Positions 5,066 to 12,378 of a DNA stretch of 33,815 nucleotides are shown here, in pieces. The notes under the pieces were generated by a model, which searched no databases, was not told where the DNA came from, and was given only the letters and a program-made list of their open reading frames with translations. Made by a program: the position numbers and the translations under genes. Source of the DNA: a virus; IMG/VR virus record IMGVR_UViG_3300032304_001339, positions 1-33,815 of that record, one strand, 5' to 3'. Within the stretch, counting starts at the first letter, position 1. The number at the start of each line of letters is the position of its first letter.

Positions 5066-5974
5066 ATGGCCTATATGGCCAACAAACTAAACAGCGTTTC
5101 TATTTTAACGGTTGGAGAGGCTAGGGGCCACAACCTCAAGATCGACCAAACCTCGCTCGAACAAGCGCTCAAAGTGGCGCAAAGCATGAAGCGGATCAAA
5201 GTGACCATGGGCCACGGAGCACCCGTCACTGGCATCCTTGGTTACATCGATAATTTCTTAATCAAAGGCGACCGCCTGCTGGGTGATCTAAACCTCTTTA
5301 ACACTAACGAGGCGCAGTTTGTCGAGCAGCTGGCCCAAGTATTGCCCGAAGGTTTCGGCATATCCCTTACCTTTAGCGGCGTGCCTGAGATCATGGGCGC
5401 TGAACGTTTTGCCAGGGTGACTGAAATCTATGACTGCTCAATCGTTTCTGAGCCGGCCGCCAATCCCGCAGGAATGTTTTCTGCCTTCTCAGCAGTTGAC
5501 ATGAAAAAACTGCAAATGAACGAAGCACCCGTCGAAGTCAAAAAGGAGCTGAGCGAGCCTGCCGTTGTGGCAGTTCCCGCACCCGAAGCTCCTGCCATTG
5601 AAACTCCCGCCGTTGTCGAAGCACCGAAAGCCGAACTGGCTGAAATGCCCGAAGAGAAAAAGGACGAGCAGAAGATGGCCGAGCCTACTCTGACCGACAT
5701 CGCAGCCATGTTGACCAAACTAATCGGCATGCTGACTCCCAAGATCGAAGAGGACGAAGATGACGAGGAGATGGGTTACAAAAAAGAAGAAATGTCCAAG
5801 GCCGACGACAAGGCCGTGACCACTTTGGAAAAAGCCAAGGCCGACGCTGCTGGCGCAGTGGCGGTTCCCGCTGAATCGAGCCAACCGCTCGGCCGGGCAG
5901 AAATCCTCAATCAATTCAACGCGGAAAAGAATCCGGCCCGTCGGTCGGAACTTCTTCGCAAACTCGGACTGTAA
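5066..5974 (+). CDS. Prohead protease / scaffolding fusion
   Basis: Likely head maturation protease fused to scaffold, 302 residues from ATG 5066. The N-terminal ~140 residues carry a pattern like HK97/herpes-assemblin-type proteases: a His in VTMGHG (H50), a Ser in GFGIS (S100) and a following EIYDCSIVSEPAANPAG segment. I infer His and Ser as catalytic. The C-terminal half is Pro/Ala/Glu-rich, then strongly acidic (EEDEDDEEMG), ending in a basic helix GRAEILNQFNAEKNP...LLRKLGL, the layout of a scaffold with a capsid-binding tail. The gene sits between portal and capsid, as expected. TTG 5054 and ATG 5075 are alternative starts; none has a clear Shine-Dalgarno. Confidence 0.75.
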   Translation: MAYMANKLNSVSILTVGEARGHNLKIDQTSLEQALKVAQSMKRIKVTMGHGAPVTGILGYIDNFLIKGDRLLGDLNLFNTNEAQFVEQLAQVLPEGFGISLTFSGVPEIMGAERFARVTEIYDCSIVSEPAANPAGMFSAFSAVDMKKLQMNEAPVEVKKELSEPAVVAVPAPEAPAIETPAVVEAPKAELAEMPEEKKDEQKMAEPTLTDIAAMLTKLIGMLTPKIEEDEDDEEMGYKKEEMSKADDKAVTTLEKAKADAAGAVAVPAESSQPLGRAEILNQFNAEKNPARRSELLRKLGL

Positions 5975-5999
5975 TCCAGTCCACTAGGAGAACACTACA

Positions 6000-6890
6000 A
6001 TGGCCAACACAATCGGAACAACGAATGCCAATGTAATCGCTCAGAGGGCTCTCGAGATCCTCGTGGCAGATTACAGCTTCCTCAGAAATTCTGTAACGGA
6101 TTTCAGCAGCGAAGCAGCTAAATACAACGCGTCAGTCTTTACCCACCGGATCTCTGCGACGACCGCCCAGGACTACTCGCAGGCGAACGGCTACGTAGCG
6201 ACTGCAACAACCCAGACGGACGTGCAGATCACCCTCAACAAGTTTAAGCACGTTTCGTATTCTGTGGACGATCAAGAGCGCACCAGCTCCAACATCAACC
6301 TAATCGAGCGTTTCGCCGGCGCAGCCGCGCATGCTCTCGGTTTGCAGATGGTTGGGGATTTGCTCGCTCTCGTGACTTCCTCCACCTTCACCAGCGCATT
6401 GACGGTTGCTTCCAGCGCCTTCTCCTACCGCTCGGTAGTGTCGGCCGGAATCACCCTCAACAACAGCAACGTGCCAGTCAACGGCCGGTACGCTGTTCTT
6501 AACCCCAGCTTCTACGGCGCTCTCTTGAATGACACGACCGTCGTGGCCAATCCTCAGATCACCGGCGACCTCGTTCGCACGGCTGGGATCGGAAACGTTG
6601 CTGGATTCAACATCAACCAGTACAGCGCAGTGCCTTCCAACAGCATCACGCTCGGCGGATTCTTCGCCCAACAGGAAGCCCTGTTGATCGCGACCCGCGT
6701 TCCTGAGGTGCCAACAGGCGTTCCAATACCCGGAGAGATTTCTGTGGTAACGGAACCCCGCACTGGCCTATCCGTCCAAGTTCGTGAGAACTACGACGTG
6801 GTTAAGGGCCAGCTGCAGCGCACCTACGCTCTGATCTACGGCGTGAAAGCCGGAGAGCCCGCGAGCTTGGTTCGTATCAACGGTAGCTAA
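6000..6890 (+). CDS. Major capsid protein (HK97-type fold expected)
   Basis: Major head subunit, 296 residues. The evidence is position directly after the protease/scaffold and a composition typical of coat proteins: rich in Ala, Thr, Val and Asn, with no cysteine. Characteristic stretches are RISATTAQDYSQANGYV, HVSYSVDDQERTSSN, GRYAVLNPSFYGALLND and a C-terminal GLSVQVRENYDVVKGQLQ...LIYGVKAGEP, which resembles the P-domain end of P22/HK97-like coat proteins. A strong AGGAG Shine-Dalgarno lies about 11 bases before ATG, and a stem-loop follows the stop, both fitting high expression. It is unclear whether a separate decoration protein exists; none is seen. Confidence 0.85.
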   Translation: MANTIGTTNANVIAQRALEILVADYSFLRNSVTDFSSEAAKYNASVFTHRISATTAQDYSQANGYVATATTQTDVQITLNKFKHVSYSVDDQERTSSNINLIERFAGAAAHALGLQMVGDLLALVTSSTFTSALTVASSAFSYRSVVSAGITLNNSNVPVNGRYAVLNPSFYGALLNDTTVVANPQITGDLVRTAGIGNVAGFNINQYSAVPSNSITLGGFFAQQEALLIATRVPEVPTGVPIPGEISVVTEPRTGLSVQVRENYDVVKGQLQRTYALIYGVKAGEPASLVRINGS

Positions 6891-6951: not shown

Positions 6952-7251
6952 ATGTCTGAATTCACAGAAGCGTTAAAAGAAAGTCTGGCCGCTCTTTATA
7001 CTCAAACTGGCACAGCGGCCACCATTGGTTCTACTGGGGTTACTGGTATCCTTTCAACAATCACCCGCAAAGAAAGCGTGGAGCTGGGCGGGTTTGATCT
7101 GGATCTAAACTCCACCTTTACCATCGACGTGAGCGCCATCTCATCGGCGCCTACTATCGGATCTATCTTGCTGGCCAACTCGGTCAGCTATCGCGTGGCG
7201 TCGATTGATACTTCTATCGGCAGTTACGTGCTCGGGTTGCGAGAGATTTAA
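6952..7251 (+). CDS. Head-tail connector / head completion protein (candidate)
   Basis: A 99-residue protein after the capsid gene, in the position of lambda FII-type or similar connectors. It contains a helical N-terminus (EFTEALKESLAALY), then beta-rich sequence with FDLDLNSTFTIDVSA and a C-terminal SIDTSIGSYVLGLREI, in keeping with small beta-barrel head-tail joiners. Its start has no Shine-Dalgarno; instead GAAATCCT stands one base before ATG (compare 18706-18713). The next gene starts two bases after its stop. Assignment is by size and gene order. Confidence 0.5.
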   Translation: MSEFTEALKESLAALYTQTGTAATIGSTGVTGILSTITRKESVELGGFDLDLNSTFTIDVSAISSAPTIGSILLANSVSYRVASIDTSIGSYVLGLREI

Positions 7252-7253
7252 CC

Positions 7254-8939
7254 GTGGCAACTCGAAATCCTAAAATCTCCATCTACATGATCGCCGGGCA
7301 CGAGGCCCAATTTATCGACCGCTGCCTTACCGCCTTTAAACCATTCTGCGACGAGCTAGTCGTCTGCATTGCCCAAGGCGGCCGACCTGACGACGGCACG
7401 CGGGCAATCGCCGAGAAGTCAGGCGCCAAGATAGTTGAATATAAAAATGCACCGGCAGGAGCGAGCTGGCCGCACGTCGATAACTTTGCTGCTGCTCGCA
7501 ACACCGCACTGGATGCCTGCACTAGCGAATATGCGGTATGGGTGGATTGCGATGACTTGCCGCATAAAGACCTCAAAAACGCTCTTAAAAGGGGTGTAGA
7601 AGCATTTGAACAGAATCCCAAGCTCGGCATCTATGCAGGCGTCTATGACGTTATAAACGCCAAATTAAGGCCAGTACGTGAGCGCATGGTGCGGCGTATA
7701 GATGGCGTATGGTCTGGGAGGTGGAACTACGCAGTGCATGAGGCGCTGTTGCCTAATGCTGGGCTGGAATCTGTGGGCGAGCAGACGGTATGGGTTGAGC
7801 ATCACCCCGGCGGATATAAGCCAAACAGCGCCGATCGGAATCTCCGCATCTTGCAGGGCCAGTTAAGCGAAGCAGGCAAGTATGCCTACTACTATCAGCA
7901 GGAACTTTTCCTAGGCAATCGCAGGACAGAATCAGAGCCGTGGTCACACGTTGCGGCCGTCTGGCCGGGACAAGAGGCAACGCTGGCTTACGAGGCTGCC
8001 TGCAATCAAGCGACAGCCACGCAAGATCGCACGGTCAGGATCGGCTTATACCAAAAGGCACATCAGATGAACCCTGGGCGAAGGGAAGCGATTTACTATT
8101 TAGCCAGGGAAGAGGCCAGCGTGGGTGCGTGGTTGCAGGCTTACCACTTGCTAAAATCGGCAATGGTTCAGCCCGATCCGGGCGTGAAGATCTGGAACGC
8201 CCAGCGCACCGTGTACGACTTTGAGTGCATCGATCTATATCTTGCGGCATGTAAGGCCGTCGGCGATACGGCCGAGGCAGAAAAGATTGAGAACATGTGG
8301 CGGGCGCAGAAGCCCGTAAAGATTACCGTTTGCCACGCTACGCGAGGCCGCCCACAGGAAGCGATCAACGCCCGCATCTTGTGGATGAAAAAGGCGGCAG
8401 ATCCAGCGTCAGTCGAGTGGATCTACTCAGTCGACGATGACGACCCTAAAGCCGACATGCTGAAAAATTGGGGAATAGTTAAAGGCAAGGGCGGGTGTAT
8501 TGCCGCTTGGAACAGGGCGGCCGAAGTAGCCCGTGGGGAGATTATCATTCAAGGCTCTGACGATTGGGACCCTCCGCTACATTGGGACAAGATAATCAGC
8601 GATAGGATTGGCGATACCAGCAAGCCGAAGGTACTGGCGATTTCAGACGGCCACCGCAAAGACGATCTGCTGTGCATGGCAATCCTCACCAAAGCACGAC
8701 TGCAAGATCAGGGCGCCATATTTGCCGCTGAATATGACGCATGCTCCGGCATATTTTCGGATAATGAATTTTCCAAGAGAGCTGCTTACGACGGCGTCAT
8801 CATTCCTGCCAAGGACATCATATTCACTCACAATAATCCGCTCTTCACCGGCGCAGCACAGGATGCGGAATTTAAACGCCACAACGCCAAGGAGAACTAC
8901 GAGCTTGGCGAAAAGATATTTAAGGAACGCAACCCGTGA
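7254..8939 (+). CDS. Two-domain glycosyltransferase (GT2-like, with helical middle)
   Basis: Probable bifunctional glycosyltransferase, 561 residues. The N-terminal domain (~1-200) resembles the GT2/beta-1,4-glucosyltransferase type: SIYMIAGHEAQFIDRCL, a DDGTRAIAEKSGAKIVEY substrate loop, FAAARNTAL and an acidic metal site VDCDD (97-101). Residues ~215-345 look helical and TPR-like (AIYYLAREEASVGAWLQAYHLL). A second GT-A-type domain begins near 352 (ITVCHATRGRP), with DDDD (~393-396), GGCIAAWNRAAEVARGE and GSDDWDPP (~434). It is first in a five-gene overlapped run between head and tail genes. The GTG start is two bases after the connector stop, and its stop overlaps the next start. Likely role: adding sugars to a phage or host surface molecule; donor and acceptor unknown. 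Confidence 0.85.
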   Translation: MATRNPKISIYMIAGHEAQFIDRCLTAFKPFCDELVVCIAQGGRPDDGTRAIAEKSGAKIVEYKNAPAGASWPHVDNFAAARNTALDACTSEYAVWVDCDDLPHKDLKNALKRGVEAFEQNPKLGIYAGVYDVINAKLRPVRERMVRRIDGVWSGRWNYAVHEALLPNAGLESVGEQTVWVEHHPGGYKPNSADRNLRILQGQLSEAGKYAYYYQQELFLGNRRTESEPWSHVAAVWPGQEATLAYEAACNQATATQDRTVRIGLYQKAHQMNPGRREAIYYLAREEASVGAWLQAYHLLKSAMVQPDPGVKIWNAQRTVYDFECIDLYLAACKAVGDTAEAEKIENMWRAQKPVKITVCHATRGRPQEAINARILWMKKAADPASVEWIYSVDDDDPKADMLKNWGIVKGKGGCIAAWNRAAEVARGEIIIQGSDDWDPPLHWDKIISDRIGDTSKPKVLAISDGHRKDDLLCMAILTKARLQDQGAIFAAEYDACSGIFSDNEFSKRAAYDGVIIPAKDIIFTHNNPLFTGAAQDAEFKRHNAKENYELGEKIFKERNP

Positions 8940-9700
8940 TTCACACGCACAACGCACTGCGCCTAGGCGACAACCTAGTGCAGTTAAACTTTCTACGTCG
9001 GCTATGCCTTCAAAATCCAGATATCGAGATCACGCACTATCACAATCCAGAGCTGTGCAAGTTTGAGGAGATTGATGCGTTGCGAAGCGACATGTCTTTA
9101 CGGCTACACATTCGACCAATCAGCGAAGCGCCGGCCGATAGTATTGATTCTTGGCGTAATGCAGGCGGATATTGGGAGCGTCACCCCGAAAAATTAAACT
9201 TTGCCAAATTTCATCTATGTTGGTTTGAGGAACTGGCCAGCAGGATGTGCGTAAAGAATCCTATACGGAAAGTCGATGACCTTCTATTTGACTATCCAGC
9301 TTTAGATTCCTTTATTCCGATGGCGCCAGATTTCGACATCGTTGTGATAAATTCGCCAGGGCTGTCTGGTCAATTCACAAACTTTAACCCCGATGATTTT
9401 CGCAACCTAGTATCTAAACTAGTTAGCAAAGGGCATCGCGTAATTACCACAGTCGCTACTGGATTATGCCCGGCATTTGATGGCAAGAATGTGACTTGGA
9501 TCGGAGCCACTGCGGCCAAGGCAAAAGCTGTCATCGGAACATCCACCGGGCCGAGCTGGCCGTGCCTAAACGTTCACAACAAAAATGCCTTCCATTTGCT
9601 GTGTGCGGACACCGAAACAGTCGTATTTACTAAGCGCGGGCAGATGGCCAGGAGCGCATTTCACGCCCTCCATATTCTTGAAGAGGAGGGCTTGCTGTGA
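8936..9700 (+). CDS. Glycosyltransferase-like protein, GT-B / family 9-like
   Basis: A 254-residue protein starting at GTG 8936 in a four-base overlap with the previous gene. The N-terminus (LGDNLVQLNFLRRLCLQNPDIEITHYHN) matches the first Rossmann strand and helix of heptosyltransferase/GT9-type GT-B enzymes. A second half starting near residue 135 (DIVVINSPGLSGQFTNFNPDDF...LVSKGHRVITTVATG) resembles the nucleotide-sugar-binding half, with VIGTSTGPSWPCLN near residue 200 as a candidate donor loop. It is shorter than typical GT9 enzymes (~320-350), so substrate and activity are uncertain. Context beside a GT2-like enzyme supports glycan work. Confidence 0.6.
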   Translation: MIHTHNALRLGDNLVQLNFLRRLCLQNPDIEITHYHNPELCKFEEIDALRSDMSLRLHIRPISEAPADSIDSWRNAGGYWERHPEKLNFAKFHLCWFEELASRMCVKNPIRKVDDLLFDYPALDSFIPMAPDFDIVVINSPGLSGQFTNFNPDDFRNLVSKLVSKGHRVITTVATGLCPAFDGKNVTWIGATAAKAKAVIGTSTGPSWPCLNVHNKNAFHLLCADTETVVFTKRGQMARSAFHALHILEEEGLL

Positions 9701-10215
9701 AGAAGGAGCTGACGCAGGCAATGGATTTACTGGCGGCCGATCCGGCCGTTAGGTTCATAGGCTACGGGGTAAAGATAGGTGGGCGGGCAGCAGGCACGCT
9801 CAATAATGTTGCGGATTCACAACTGATCGAAACGCCTGTCGCTGAAAATCTGATGGTGGGCTTGGCTACTGGCTTGAGCCTAGCTGCACTCAAGCCTGTC
9901 GTTTTTATTGAGCGGATGGATTTTATTCTGAATGCACTGGACGCCATCGTAAATCACCTGGGCGCAGCTCAGCATATTAGCTGCAATCAATTCAAACCTG
10001 CCGCCATCTTGCGGGTAGTTATAGGAAACAAAAACAAGCCACTCTACACGGGGCCAACGCATACGCAGGACTTCAGCGAAGCTCTCAGGAGTATGATTGA
10101 TTTCCCAATCGTCGAACTAAAGAAGGAAAGCGTAGTGAACGAGTATCAAAGCGCACTGGATAGATTAAGCGAGGGAACTTCCACCATGTTGGTCGAGCGA
10201 AAGGATGAGTGGTGA
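9697..10215 (+). CDS. Thiamine-diphosphate enzyme, pyrimidine-binding subunit
   Basis: A 172-residue stand-alone Pyr domain, like the N-terminal part of transketolase C-terminal subunits or E1-beta. The signature is LIETPVAENLMVGLATGLSLAALKPVVFIE: the glutamate in AEN (E50) corresponds to the residue that activates the thiamine pyrimidine ring, and the following glycine-rich helix and MDFILNALDAIVNHLGA match the family. It lacks the transketolase C-terminal domain that normally follows in E1-beta (~320 residues). The partner PP domain is two genes downstream (11300-11914). It starts at GTG 9697, overlapping the previous stop. With its partner it would cleave or transfer a carbon unit next to a carbonyl; substrate unknown. 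Confidence 0.8.
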   Translation: MKKELTQAMDLLAADPAVRFIGYGVKIGGRAAGTLNNVADSQLIETPVAENLMVGLATGLSLAALKPVVFIERMDFILNALDAIVNHLGAAQHISCNQFKPAAILRVVIGNKNKPLYTGPTHTQDFSEALRSMIDFPIVELKKESVVNEYQSALDRLSEGTSTMLVERKDEW

Positions 10216-11303
10216 AGCAGAACAAGTACAGCGACCTCAAAATCTTTTCGTTTCCAGACAAGATAGCCAGTTTTCGCGACGACATTATCACCGCACCCAT
10301 CTACGTGCGGATTAAGCCGACGAATATCTGTAACCACGCCTGCCGTTTCTGCGTCTATTCTGACGGCACAACTCGGCACAAGGATCGGCCTGACTTGCAC
10401 CTACAGGCTGGCATGCACACCAGCATGAACGAACGGGACGTTATGCCACGAGATAAGGCGCTAGAACTAATAGAGGATCTTTCAAACATCGGAACTAAAG
10501 CCGTCACCTTCAGCGGCGGCGGAGAGCCTTTACTGCATAAAGACATTGTCGAGATTATGACTAAGACAGTTTCGTCTGGGTTGGATCTATCCATTATTAC
10601 CAACGGCCAACTGCTTGCAGGGGAAAGGGCAGAAGTATTGGGCAAGGCAAAGTGGGTGAGGATTTCGATGGACTACACAAGCGCAGAGCAGATGGCGTCT
10701 AGCCGTAACGTGCCCGACAGATCGTTTGATTCCGTAATGCAGAATATTAAAAACTTTTCCAACACGAAAACGGAGAGCTGCGATCTTGGGATTAACTTTA
10801 TTATTACCCGCTACAATTATGAGGGACTAGTTCCGTTCGCTAAGCAGCTCAAAGATTCAGGCGTGAGTAACGTCCGCTTCTCGCCCGTGTACGTGCAGAA
10901 CTTCAAAGAATATCACAACACGATTGCGACCAGGGTGCGGGAGCAACTAGCCGAATGCCAATCCTTTTGTGATTCAGATTTTACCATCAACACGACCTAT
11001 GATCTGGATAGCCCAAGTAAGTCGCCCGTTCGGCCATTCCATCGCTGTCTTTACGCTCAGGCCGTTTGCGTGGTAGGTGCGGATCTTAATATCTACGCAT
11101 GCCACAATACCGCATACAGCAATCACGGCCGGATCGCATCCATGAAGGATCAATCATTTAGCCAGGCATGGTTTGGAGAAGAGGCGAAAGCATGGCACAA
11201 GAACTTTAACCCTGGCGTTAGTTGCCTGCATGAATGCGCCAATCACGCAAAGGTGGCGCTGTTTGAAAAGCTGGCCACCGATAGTCACGACGCCTTTGTA
11301 TGA
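10209..11303 (+). CDS. Radical SAM enzyme with C-terminal cysteine-rich (SPASM-like) region
   Basis: A 364-residue radical S-adenosylmethionine enzyme. The [4Fe-4S] motif CX3CX2C is at C41, C45 and C48 (CNHACRFC). The SAM-binding GGGEP motif is at 103-107 (TFSGGGEPLLH), and the strand SIITNGQLL follows as in other members. The C-terminal part has further cysteines (RCLYAQAVCVV...NIYACHN near 279-300, and GVSCLHECANH near 337-347), suggesting auxiliary cluster ligands of SPASM/twitch type. It starts at GTG 10209 within the previous gene and ends overlapping the next ATG. Lying between the two halves of a thiamine-diphosphate enzyme and behind glycosyltransferases, it may act in sugar or small-molecule modification. 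The exact reaction cannot be told. Confidence 0.9.
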   Translation: MVKQNKYSDLKIFSFPDKIASFRDDIITAPIYVRIKPTNICNHACRFCVYSDGTTRHKDRPDLHLQAGMHTSMNERDVMPRDKALELIEDLSNIGTKAVTFSGGGEPLLHKDIVEIMTKTVSSGLDLSIITNGQLLAGERAEVLGKAKWVRISMDYTSAEQMASSRNVPDRSFDSVMQNIKNFSNTKTESCDLGINFIITRYNYEGLVPFAKQLKDSGVSNVRFSPVYVQNFKEYHNTIATRVREQLAECQSFCDSDFTINTTYDLDSPSKSPVRPFHRCLYAQAVCVVGADLNIYACHNTAYSNHGRIASMKDQSFSQAWFGEEAKAWHKNFNPGVSCLHECANHAKVALFEKLATDSHDAFV

Positions 11304-11914
11304 ACAAGCAGGATCTGATTGATTTTGAACTGCGCATTAAGGCGCTATTTGAGCAGGGCAAGCTGCCATATCTGATTCACCTATGCGGGGGGAATGAGGA
11401 TCAGCTCATCGAGATATTTAAAGACATCAAGCCAGGCGATTGGATCTTCTCAAGCCACAGATCCCACTACCACTATTTGCTCGCTGGCGGAGATCCTGAC
11501 ATGCTCGAGCAGATGATTAAAGAAGGTCGTTCCATGTTTGTCTTTGACCGTAAACTTAATTTCTACACGTCAAGCGTGTTGGCTGGCACTTGCGGGATAG
11601 CGGCCGGAGTGGCGCACGCATTAAAAGAGCAAGGAAGCTCGGCAAAAGTCTGGTGTTTCCTGGGCGATGGAGCTGAGGATGAGGGCCATTTTTATGAGGC
11701 CGTGAACTATGTGGCCGGGGCGGATCTACCCTGCACCTTTATTATTGAGGATAACGATCGATCCGTGGATACGCCAAAGGCAGTTAGGGGAAAGGCCACG
11801 ATGACTTGGCCTGATTGCGTCAAGCGATACCACTACACCCCAACATTTCCGCATGGTGGCGCTGGATGTAAAACCATGGTCACGTTTGATCCGTCGATTC
11901 GTCCGATCTGGTGA
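11300..11914 (+). CDS. Thiamine-diphosphate enzyme, PP subunit (E1-alpha-like, short)
   Basis: A 204-residue E1-alpha-like subunit. It has the thiamine-diphosphate motif GDG (122-124) followed about 27 residues later by N152, with the intervening EGHFYEAVNYVAGADLP typical of E1-alpha and transketolase N-terminal subunits. Upstream, WIFSSHRSHYHYLLAGGD and GIAAGVAHALKEQG match the same family. The usual C-terminal third of E1-alpha (~320-360 residues) is missing: after VDTPKAVRGKATMTW the protein ends at RPIW. The start overlaps the radical SAM stop (ATGA). The partner is the Pyr-domain protein at 9697-10215. Size and split resemble two-subunit decarboxylases more than full E1, but sequence motifs are E1/transketolase-like. 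Confidence 0.85.
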   Translation: MNKQDLIDFELRIKALFEQGKLPYLIHLCGGNEDQLIEIFKDIKPGDWIFSSHRSHYHYLLAGGDPDMLEQMIKEGRSMFVFDRKLNFYTSSVLAGTCGIAAGVAHALKEQGSSAKVWCFLGDGAEDEGHFYEAVNYVAGADLPCTFIIEDNDRSVDTPKAVRGKATMTWPDCVKRYHYTPTFPHGGAGCKTMVTFDPSIRPIW

Positions 11915-11931
11915 CAAGAGGAGTTTAGAAT

Positions 11932-12378
11932 ATGCCCGCCGTCACCATGCTTGATCGTTTGATTGAAGCTGCTTTCCAAGAGCTTCTAACTACAACCGTT
12001 ACCGGGGTGACCTATCACTTGTCCCACGACAAGACAGAGAACATGCCGCCCTCGATCGTCATTAAAGCCACGTTAGGAACCGAAGAGCCGGTGCAGGGAT
12101 CTGGCGTGTTTAGCGTTCCGGTTGAAATCGTGGTGGATGATTCTTATGACGACACAACTCTAGACGCACATACTCGAAAATGCTCCAAGGTGTTGCAGGC
12201 TTTCTATGATTCAAGCCCGTTGGCGACCAGGTTGAACGCTACCACGGCCATCGGATCTGCCCGTTGTTACAACGCCAAGGTGGATTCTATTGAGCCTGAG
12301 GCTGACGATGAAGAGCGTACAATGCGTCGTACCTATAAGCTGGCAGTCATCGCACAACCGAATTCGATCGCAAGTTGA
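11932..12378 (+). CDS. Tail terminator / gpU-like protein (candidate)
   Basis: A 148-residue protein opening the tail genes after the metabolic cassette. It has an N-terminal helix (LDRLIEAAFQELL), beta strands (YHLSHDKTENMPPSIVIKA, VPVEIVVDDSYDD), a helix TRKCSKVLQAFYDSSPLA and a final beta strand with MRRTYKLAVIAQ. This alternation fits the gpU/tail-terminator fold, and gene order (before tube, before G/G-T) agrees. A GAGGAG Shine-Dalgarno lies about 11 bases upstream of ATG, and GTGACA lies 21 bases before it. Assignment is by order and fold pattern. Confidence 0.55.
   Translation: MPAVTMLDRLIEAAFQELLTTTVTGVTYHLSHDKTENMPPSIVIKATLGTEEPVQGSGVFSVPVEIVVDDSYDDTTLDAHTRKCSKVLQAFYDSSPLATRLNATTAIGSARCYNAKVDSIEPEADDEERTMRRTYKLAVIAQPNSIAS

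Follow-up and report, generated by a model that had tools for sequence, protein, structure and literature searches.

The stretch analyzed here (the window) is a 33.8-kb IMG/VR contig of a freshwater phage (record IMGVR_UViG_3300032304_001339, 33,815 nucleotides), which carries between its head and tail genes a cassette of five co-directional genes, each overlapping the next (7254-11914, Table 1). The cassette encodes a GT2-type glycosyltransferase, a GT9/heptosyltransferase-like protein (HEP), the two halves (Pyr and PP) of a minimal thiamine diphosphate (ThDP) enzyme and, between these halves, a radical S-adenosylmethionine (SAM) enzyme; the Pyr and radical SAM genes overlap by 7 bases and the radical SAM and PP genes by 4. 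An earlier note on this DNA had placed Pyr (172 amino acids (aa), with E50) and PP (204 aa, with GDG and N152) around the radical SAM gene exactly, in coordinates, lengths and residues alike, and had named these three genes as the unit; the trio is real, but the overlapping unit comprises all five genes. The trio is no chance arrangement, since it is found again in well over 100 loci, and the ratio of nonsynonymous to synonymous substitution rates (dN/dS) of the tested genes against sibling phages (0.02-0.12) indicates that Pyr, the radical SAM gene and PP are all under purifying selection.

Table 1. Genes of the cassette and its borders in the window
Feature	Position	Strand	Evidence or remark
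Coat gene, P22-like	6000-6890		
Small 99-aa gene	6952..7251	+	Head side of cassette; position between coat gene and cassette kept in siblings
GT2-type glycosyltransferase, 561 aa, with a second, C-terminal glycosyltransferase-like region	7254..8939	+	Pfam Glycos_transf_2 1.7e-12
HEP, GT9/heptosyltransferase-like, 254 aa	8936..9700	+	Homolog in locus L099 matches Glyco_transf_9, 1.6e-11
Pyr half of ThDP enzyme, E1beta-like, 172 aa, GTG start	9697..10215	+	Transket_pyr 3e-6; PRK09212 E1beta 2e-11
Radical SAM enzyme, twitch-type, 364 aa	10209..11303	+	Radical_SAM 3e-19; weak SPASM match
PP half of ThDP enzyme, E1alpha-like, 204 aa	11300..11914	+	E1_dh 3e-18; PDH E1alpha 1e-24
Conserved 148-aa gene	11932..12378	+	Tail side of cassette; upstream of tape measure gene

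Pyr and PP are halves of one enzyme, as the earlier note had supposed, since fused homologs exist and a single family, PHROG 34187 (fused PP+Pyr proteins of 405 aa, function unknown), spans both, with PP (3.7e-72) and Pyr (1.4e-42) covering non-overlapping parts of its profile. Members of the family, some split and some fused, come from phages (freshwater phages, cyanophages and jumbo phages), bacteria and DPANN archaea, the fused copies including those of cyanophages S-SM2 and P-TIM68 and of many viral contigs and metagenome-assembled genomes (MAGs); a plasmid search returned no close relatives, only generic E1alpha/E1beta proteins at 27-32%. E50 of Pyr (98%; codon at 9844-9846) and both GDG (residues 122-124, encoded at 11663-11671) and N152 of PP are conserved in 98-100% of 63-64 distinct relatives, and when several active-site His, also conserved, are included the overall range is 92-100%. 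PP is of the E1alpha type, with GDG...N, and Pyr of the E1beta type, with a catalytic Glu, as in the E1 component of 2-oxoacid dehydrogenases (pyruvate dehydrogenase (PDH) and BCKDH), except that the transketolase C-terminal domain of the beta subunit is absent: Pyr stops at 172 aa, and fused relatives likewise terminate in the Pyr domain. The Pfam matches and the short Pyr accordingly bear out what the note had said of E1/transketolase-like motifs and a missing C-terminal domain. A transketolase/DXS assignment does not fit, given that PP of the window matches E1_dh far better (3e-18) than DXP_synthase_N (3e-8) and that the C-terminal domain is lacking, and a YerE/AHAS-type decarboxylase does not fit, with TPP_enzyme_N and TPP_enzyme_M unmatched and TPP_enzyme_C at 5e-4, under the cut-off.

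In a structure prediction for a natural fused homolog (L173; phage-collection rows were left out of the alignments for structure prediction), confidence was high (pLDDT 95, pTM 0.94), and the whole chain overlaid best on human transketolase (TM score 0.65-0.67 by query length), as against 0.33-0.39 for DXS chains, which have a different domain arrangement. By analogy, the active sites would lie between two PP-Pyr units, which would make the split form a Pyr2PP2 assembly.

Two further functions for such an enzyme can be weighed at this point. The sizes of Pyr and PP resemble those of ComDE-type decarboxylase subunits, the one point in favor of a two-subunit 2-oxo acid decarboxylase (sulfopyruvate/phosphonopyruvate type) that would provide an aldehyde for a non-sugar modification. 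The earlier note had drawn the same comparison, which holds for size but fails for sequence, as the halves match E1alpha and E1beta and TPP_enzyme_C only below threshold; moreover, phosphoenolpyruvate (PEP) mutase is absent from the neighbors scanned. The ComDE/phosphonopyruvate-type assignment was therefore rejected, and a decarboxylase of this kind is very improbable. The annotation of the cyanophage copies as transketolase-like would suit an auxiliary metabolic gene raising host central carbon metabolism (PDH or the pentose phosphate pathway). We give this next to no credence, because the genes always lie in glycan clusters, have an obligate radical SAM or alcohol dehydrogenase (ADH) partner, are sited among virion genes and lack the C-terminal domain, and because no E2/lipoyl partner was found among the scanned neighbors of representative loci, where only part of the neighbors was scanned.

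The radical SAM protein carries the CX3CX2C motif (C41, C45 and C48, at 10329-10352) together with auxiliary cysteines at 280, 298, 339 and 343, and all seven are invariant in 45 homologs. This combination places it among the SPASM/twitch enzymes, and its one auxiliary cluster, with four Cys, makes it twitch-like. The solved folds closest to its AlphaFold model (pLDDT 92.3) are DesII (the top match), SuiB and BlsE; BtrN comes in at rank 17. BtrN performs a two-electron alcohol oxidation, and its auxiliary cluster, which has four Cys ligands, is considered the electron acceptor (PMC9012708); DesII is able to dehydrogenate TDP-D-quinovose (PMC11434129). We infer that the phage protein is an alcohol dehydrogenase of BtrN-like function, for which its mutual exclusion with a Zn-dependent ADH, described below, is indirect support. 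Maturation of ribosomally synthesized and post-translationally modified peptides was also considered and rejected; the many SPASM matches in NCBIfam all fall far under their cut-offs, and the gene always accompanies a ThDP enzyme.

When 193 PP-bearing loci were clustered, 70 distinct loci remained, of which 6 form a distant clade and 64 the main family. Every main-family locus (64/64) has either a twitch radical SAM gene (40) or a Zn-ADH (24), never both and never neither. The 40 comprise 28 loci with a radical SAM protein of the window type and 12 with only an archaeal relative having the same cysteines, which we assumed to share its function. Parsimony places five switches between the two oxidoreductases on a FastTree phylogeny (PP and Pyr concatenated; support uneven), and there are still five after nodes with support <0.9 are collapsed; gene calls here are open reading frames, and L061 is scored as split solely on account of a cut contig. 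Some switches occur in place: L068 and L073 keep the frame GT2-HEP-Pyr-X-PP of the window with ADH rather than the radical SAM gene as X, and in L178 and L186 a radical SAM gene adjoins a fused ThDP gene although both are nested in a clade of ADH-bearing phages. A parallel is 2-deoxystreptamine synthesis, where a Zn-ADH (NeoA) is displaced by a radical SAM enzyme (BtrN); the paper checked confirmed the role of BtrN, not that of NeoA.

Searches anchored on the radical SAM gene gave the converse result, with a ThDP gene in all 69 loci that were flanked by 3 kb or more on either side (E1-type in 60 and transketolase-type in 9, some contigs being counted repeatedly and the transketolase-type loci coming from four contigs), while radical SAM loci without PP all end at a contig edge. 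The gene order varies freely (PP-Pyr-rSAM, rSAM-(PP-Pyr fused) and Pyr-rSAM-PP, where rSAM is the radical SAM gene), and as co-occurrence alone is conserved, the interleaved order is not diagnostic. The earlier note had read joint work of the three proteins from that order; the linkage stands, through co-occurrence and natural swaps, while the argument from order falls. It had also failed to recognize the phage setting, the operon of glycosyltransferase genes and the alternation of radical SAM and ADH genes, and hence the likely chemistry. Extra small radical SAM proteins (groups RS44 and RS13) also occur beside the ThDP genes, at 5437-6225 in L067, 7265-8005 in L058 and 1525-2409 in L088.

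The alternation may be read otherwise, namely that the radical SAM enzyme and ADH are not equivalent, the former performing another radical reaction on the sugar (deamination, decarboxylation or epimerization), so that two pathways with different products share a ThDP step. This would agree with the presence of the deaminase DesII and the decarboxylase BlsE among the closest solved relatives and with the many SPASM/twitch enzymes that are non-dehydrogenases (PMC9012708). We nevertheless consider it unlikely, as an exclusion that holds across all 64 loci despite about five switches, of which some fall in one and the same gene slot, is the pattern expected of functional substitution, and the four auxiliary Cys ligands are invariant, as in BtrN.

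The ThDP enzyme is itself exchanged in nature. We compared sibling slots by anchoring on the downstream gene of the cassette (76 loci), and in four of them (L210, L211, L218 and L239) HEP and the radical SAM gene are accompanied by a methyltransferase and a split Transketolase_N/Transket_pyr pair. The complete gene list comes from L211 only, the other three sharing its PP counterpart (PP') at 98-100%. There the pair (213 and 151 aa; 4e-12 and 1.6e-22) lies at 5078-6171, is of the transketolase/DXS type without a C-terminal domain, is unrelated to the main family and was met in only four contigs of the viral scan; the radical SAM proteins of the four phages are ~97% identical to that of the window (97.5% in L211). 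From this swap and the alternation above it follows that the same radical SAM enzyme pairs with two ThDP lineages and that the main ThDP lineage pairs with two oxidoreductase types.

Replacement by a transketolase/DXS-type pair raises the prospect that the ThDP enzyme lengthens or rearranges a phospho-sugar chain, transferring a ketol or acyl group to an aldehyde in transketolase/DXS style to give a heptose or octose precursor, with the dehydrogenase making the aldehyde or ketose. HldE-like kinases are encoded in 19 loci (one scoring above the curated cut-off for heptose-7-phosphate kinase), and S-SM2 and P-TIM68 have GmhA-like genes; these, together with the GT9-like transferase, would be in keeping with such a role. 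The main family, however, is E1-like rather than transketolase-like, sedoheptulose-7-phosphate is normally already made by hosts, and an HldE-like kinase is absent from many loci, the window among them, which together leave chain extension quite unlikely.

More broadly, the neighbors of the relatives belong to sugar-nucleotide and glycan clusters, with short-chain dehydrogenases/reductases (SDRs), epimerases, DegT aminotransferases, HldE-like heptose kinases, GmhA-like isomerases and glycosyltransferases. Large lipopolysaccharide gene clusters in cyanophages were noted in 2010, their function unknown there (PMC3037559). A phosphonate (Fom-like) pathway, considered for the combination of ADH, a cytidylyltransferase-like gene and a radical SAM gene, was rejected, PEP mutase being missing from the neighbors scanned and the S-SM2 protein of 522 aa being an NTP transferase.

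In the window, the slot at 7251-11932, like the homologous slots in L198-L266, holds hypervariable glycan genes between head and tail genes, in which GT2 is constant and an FkbM methyltransferase, an exostosin-like GT47, the GT9-like gene and the ThDP/radical SAM genes are exchanged; L222 and L224 have methyltransferases and other glycosyltransferases in the same slot. GT2 (which also matches PHROGs 13126 (2e-18) and 14945 (6e-7), both glycosyltransferases) is kept in every sibling phage covering the slot, whether or not ThDP genes are present, and HEP, for which the window protein gave no match in Pfam or in the phage collection, accompanies the split ThDP genes in many loci. Pfam and PHROG matches further show a GpA-type terminase, a lambda-type portal and the P22-like coat gene in the window; judged by position, the 99-aa gene probably serves head completion or head-tail joining, and the 148-aa gene would have a tail role. 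The closest relative of the coat protein in the phage collection is that of Verrucomicrobia phage P8625 (31%), and the Verrucomicrobia MAG L085 has HEP, Pyr, a radical SAM gene and a PP 68% identical to that of the window; the phage host may be a verrucomicrobium.

Taken together, these observations make it on balance probable that the cassette encodes an oxidize-then-branch route to an unusual sugar, in which the radical SAM enzyme (or ADH) makes a keto-sugar and the ThDP enzyme adds a C2 branch. In the first step, the twitch radical SAM enzyme would carry out a two-electron oxidation of a sugar hydroxyl to yield a keto-sugar, the substrate probably being a nucleotide sugar; in other lineages the Zn-dependent ADH would perform this oxidation. 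Pyr and PP, probably as Pyr2PP2, would then form a minimal E1-type ThDP carboligase that attaches two carbons to the ketone, probably as an acetyl group derived from pyruvate, to give a C2-branched sugar, and the neighboring GT2 and GT9-like transferases would finally place this sugar on the virion or host surface. Since the cassette lies among same-strand virion genes, late expression and virion decoration are the first guess, and modification of host surface glycans instead is possible. In its general form, our proposal is of a modular pathway to C2-branched sugars, common to phages and uncultured microbes, in which unrelated enzymes have replaced one another in both catalytic slots, with a radical SAM dehydrogenase or Zn-ADH for the oxidation, an E1-type or transketolase-type minimal ThDP enzyme for the carboligation and, in this phage, a virion glycan as the end product; this we put forward tentatively, as possible rather than probable.

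Two further observations concern other loci. In the distant PP/Pyr clade (L188-L193), GDM replaces GDG, and in L188 two SDR epimerase-type genes separate PP from Pyr, while a SPASM radical SAM gene and an aminotransferase gene lie upstream; this clade possibly represents a third way of making the keto-sugar. L194, on Azospirillum lipoferum plasmid AZO_p6, has a full-length E1alpha + transketolase-C protein beside DegT aminotransferase and glycosyltransferase genes, and is a possible cellular E1-type sugar-branching locus.

Several points weigh against an oxidize-then-branch route. Its reactions, substrate, assembly and glycan target are deduced rather than observed; exclusion of radical SAM and ADH could also mark two pathways with different products; and E1-like sequences fit plain decarboxylation too. 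The closest solved radical SAM relative by sequence is BlsE, a decarboxylase (2.6e-7), similar cysteines also occur in several SPASM/twitch enzymes that are not dehydrogenases, and L087 and L067 have other, non-orthologous radical SAM genes beside ADH. The neighboring HldE-like kinases point to heptose, and no precedent for C2 branching of a heptose was found here. Finally, the alphaKADH2 enzymes, which are proposed to move acetyl from pyruvate to a keto-sugar, are likened to the phage pair by gene context and superfamily only. Were the proposal true, the cassette would represent the smallest E1-type ThDP carboligase system and the first phage-encoded sugar-branching route known to us, as well as a new link between radical SAM and ThDP chemistry, and it would explain PHROG 34187 and the cyanophage 'transketolase'. 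Matched enzyme pairs (radical SAM versus ADH, E1-type versus transketolase-type), available from the natural swaps, make the chemistry directly testable.

A literature search joining phage, radical SAM and transketolase/ThDP found no paper, and the nearest known systems come from antibiotic biosynthesis. The alphaKADH2 proteins (AviB1/AviB2, Pau11/Pau12, EvdU5/EvdS3 and KbDH-alpha/beta) are, like the phage pair, ThDP proteins that consist of two subunits, resemble E1alpha and E1beta and are encoded in clusters for sugar modification, and for the first three of these E1-type heterodimers addition of a C2 branch to keto-sugars has been proposed (PMC4753412, PMC10338323, PMC12247030). Whereas they belong to antibiotic clusters of actinobacteria, the phage family is spread widely over phages and environments, lacks the C-terminal domain, can occur as a PP-Pyr fusion and has a radical SAM enzyme as its partner. 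The split transketolases of miharamycin, proposed to act in C2 branching after an oxidoreductase makes the ketone (PMC12247030), and of amipurimycin follow the same logic as the L211-type phages, an oxidoreductase and then a split transketolase; the main phage family is E1-type instead, the L211 pair has no C-terminal domain, and the oxidoreductase is a radical SAM enzyme. For the ketone-accepting alphaKADH2 and transketolase enzymes no experimental structure exists, and the transketolase branching step is unproven (PMC12247030). BtrN, a 2-deoxy-scyllo-inosamine (2-DOIA) dehydrogenase, and DesII are radical SAM enzymes that act on a sugar-like alcohol, as the phage protein would, and BtrN shares the four-Cys auxiliary cluster, but identity is 13-18% and the fold match moderate (TM score 0.39-0.61 by query length). 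The transketolase-like genes of S-SM2 and P-TIM68, annotated only as transketolase central region, encode a PP+Pyr homolog with 42-57% identity to each half, which differs from the pair of the window in being fused and in lying beside a Zn-ADH.

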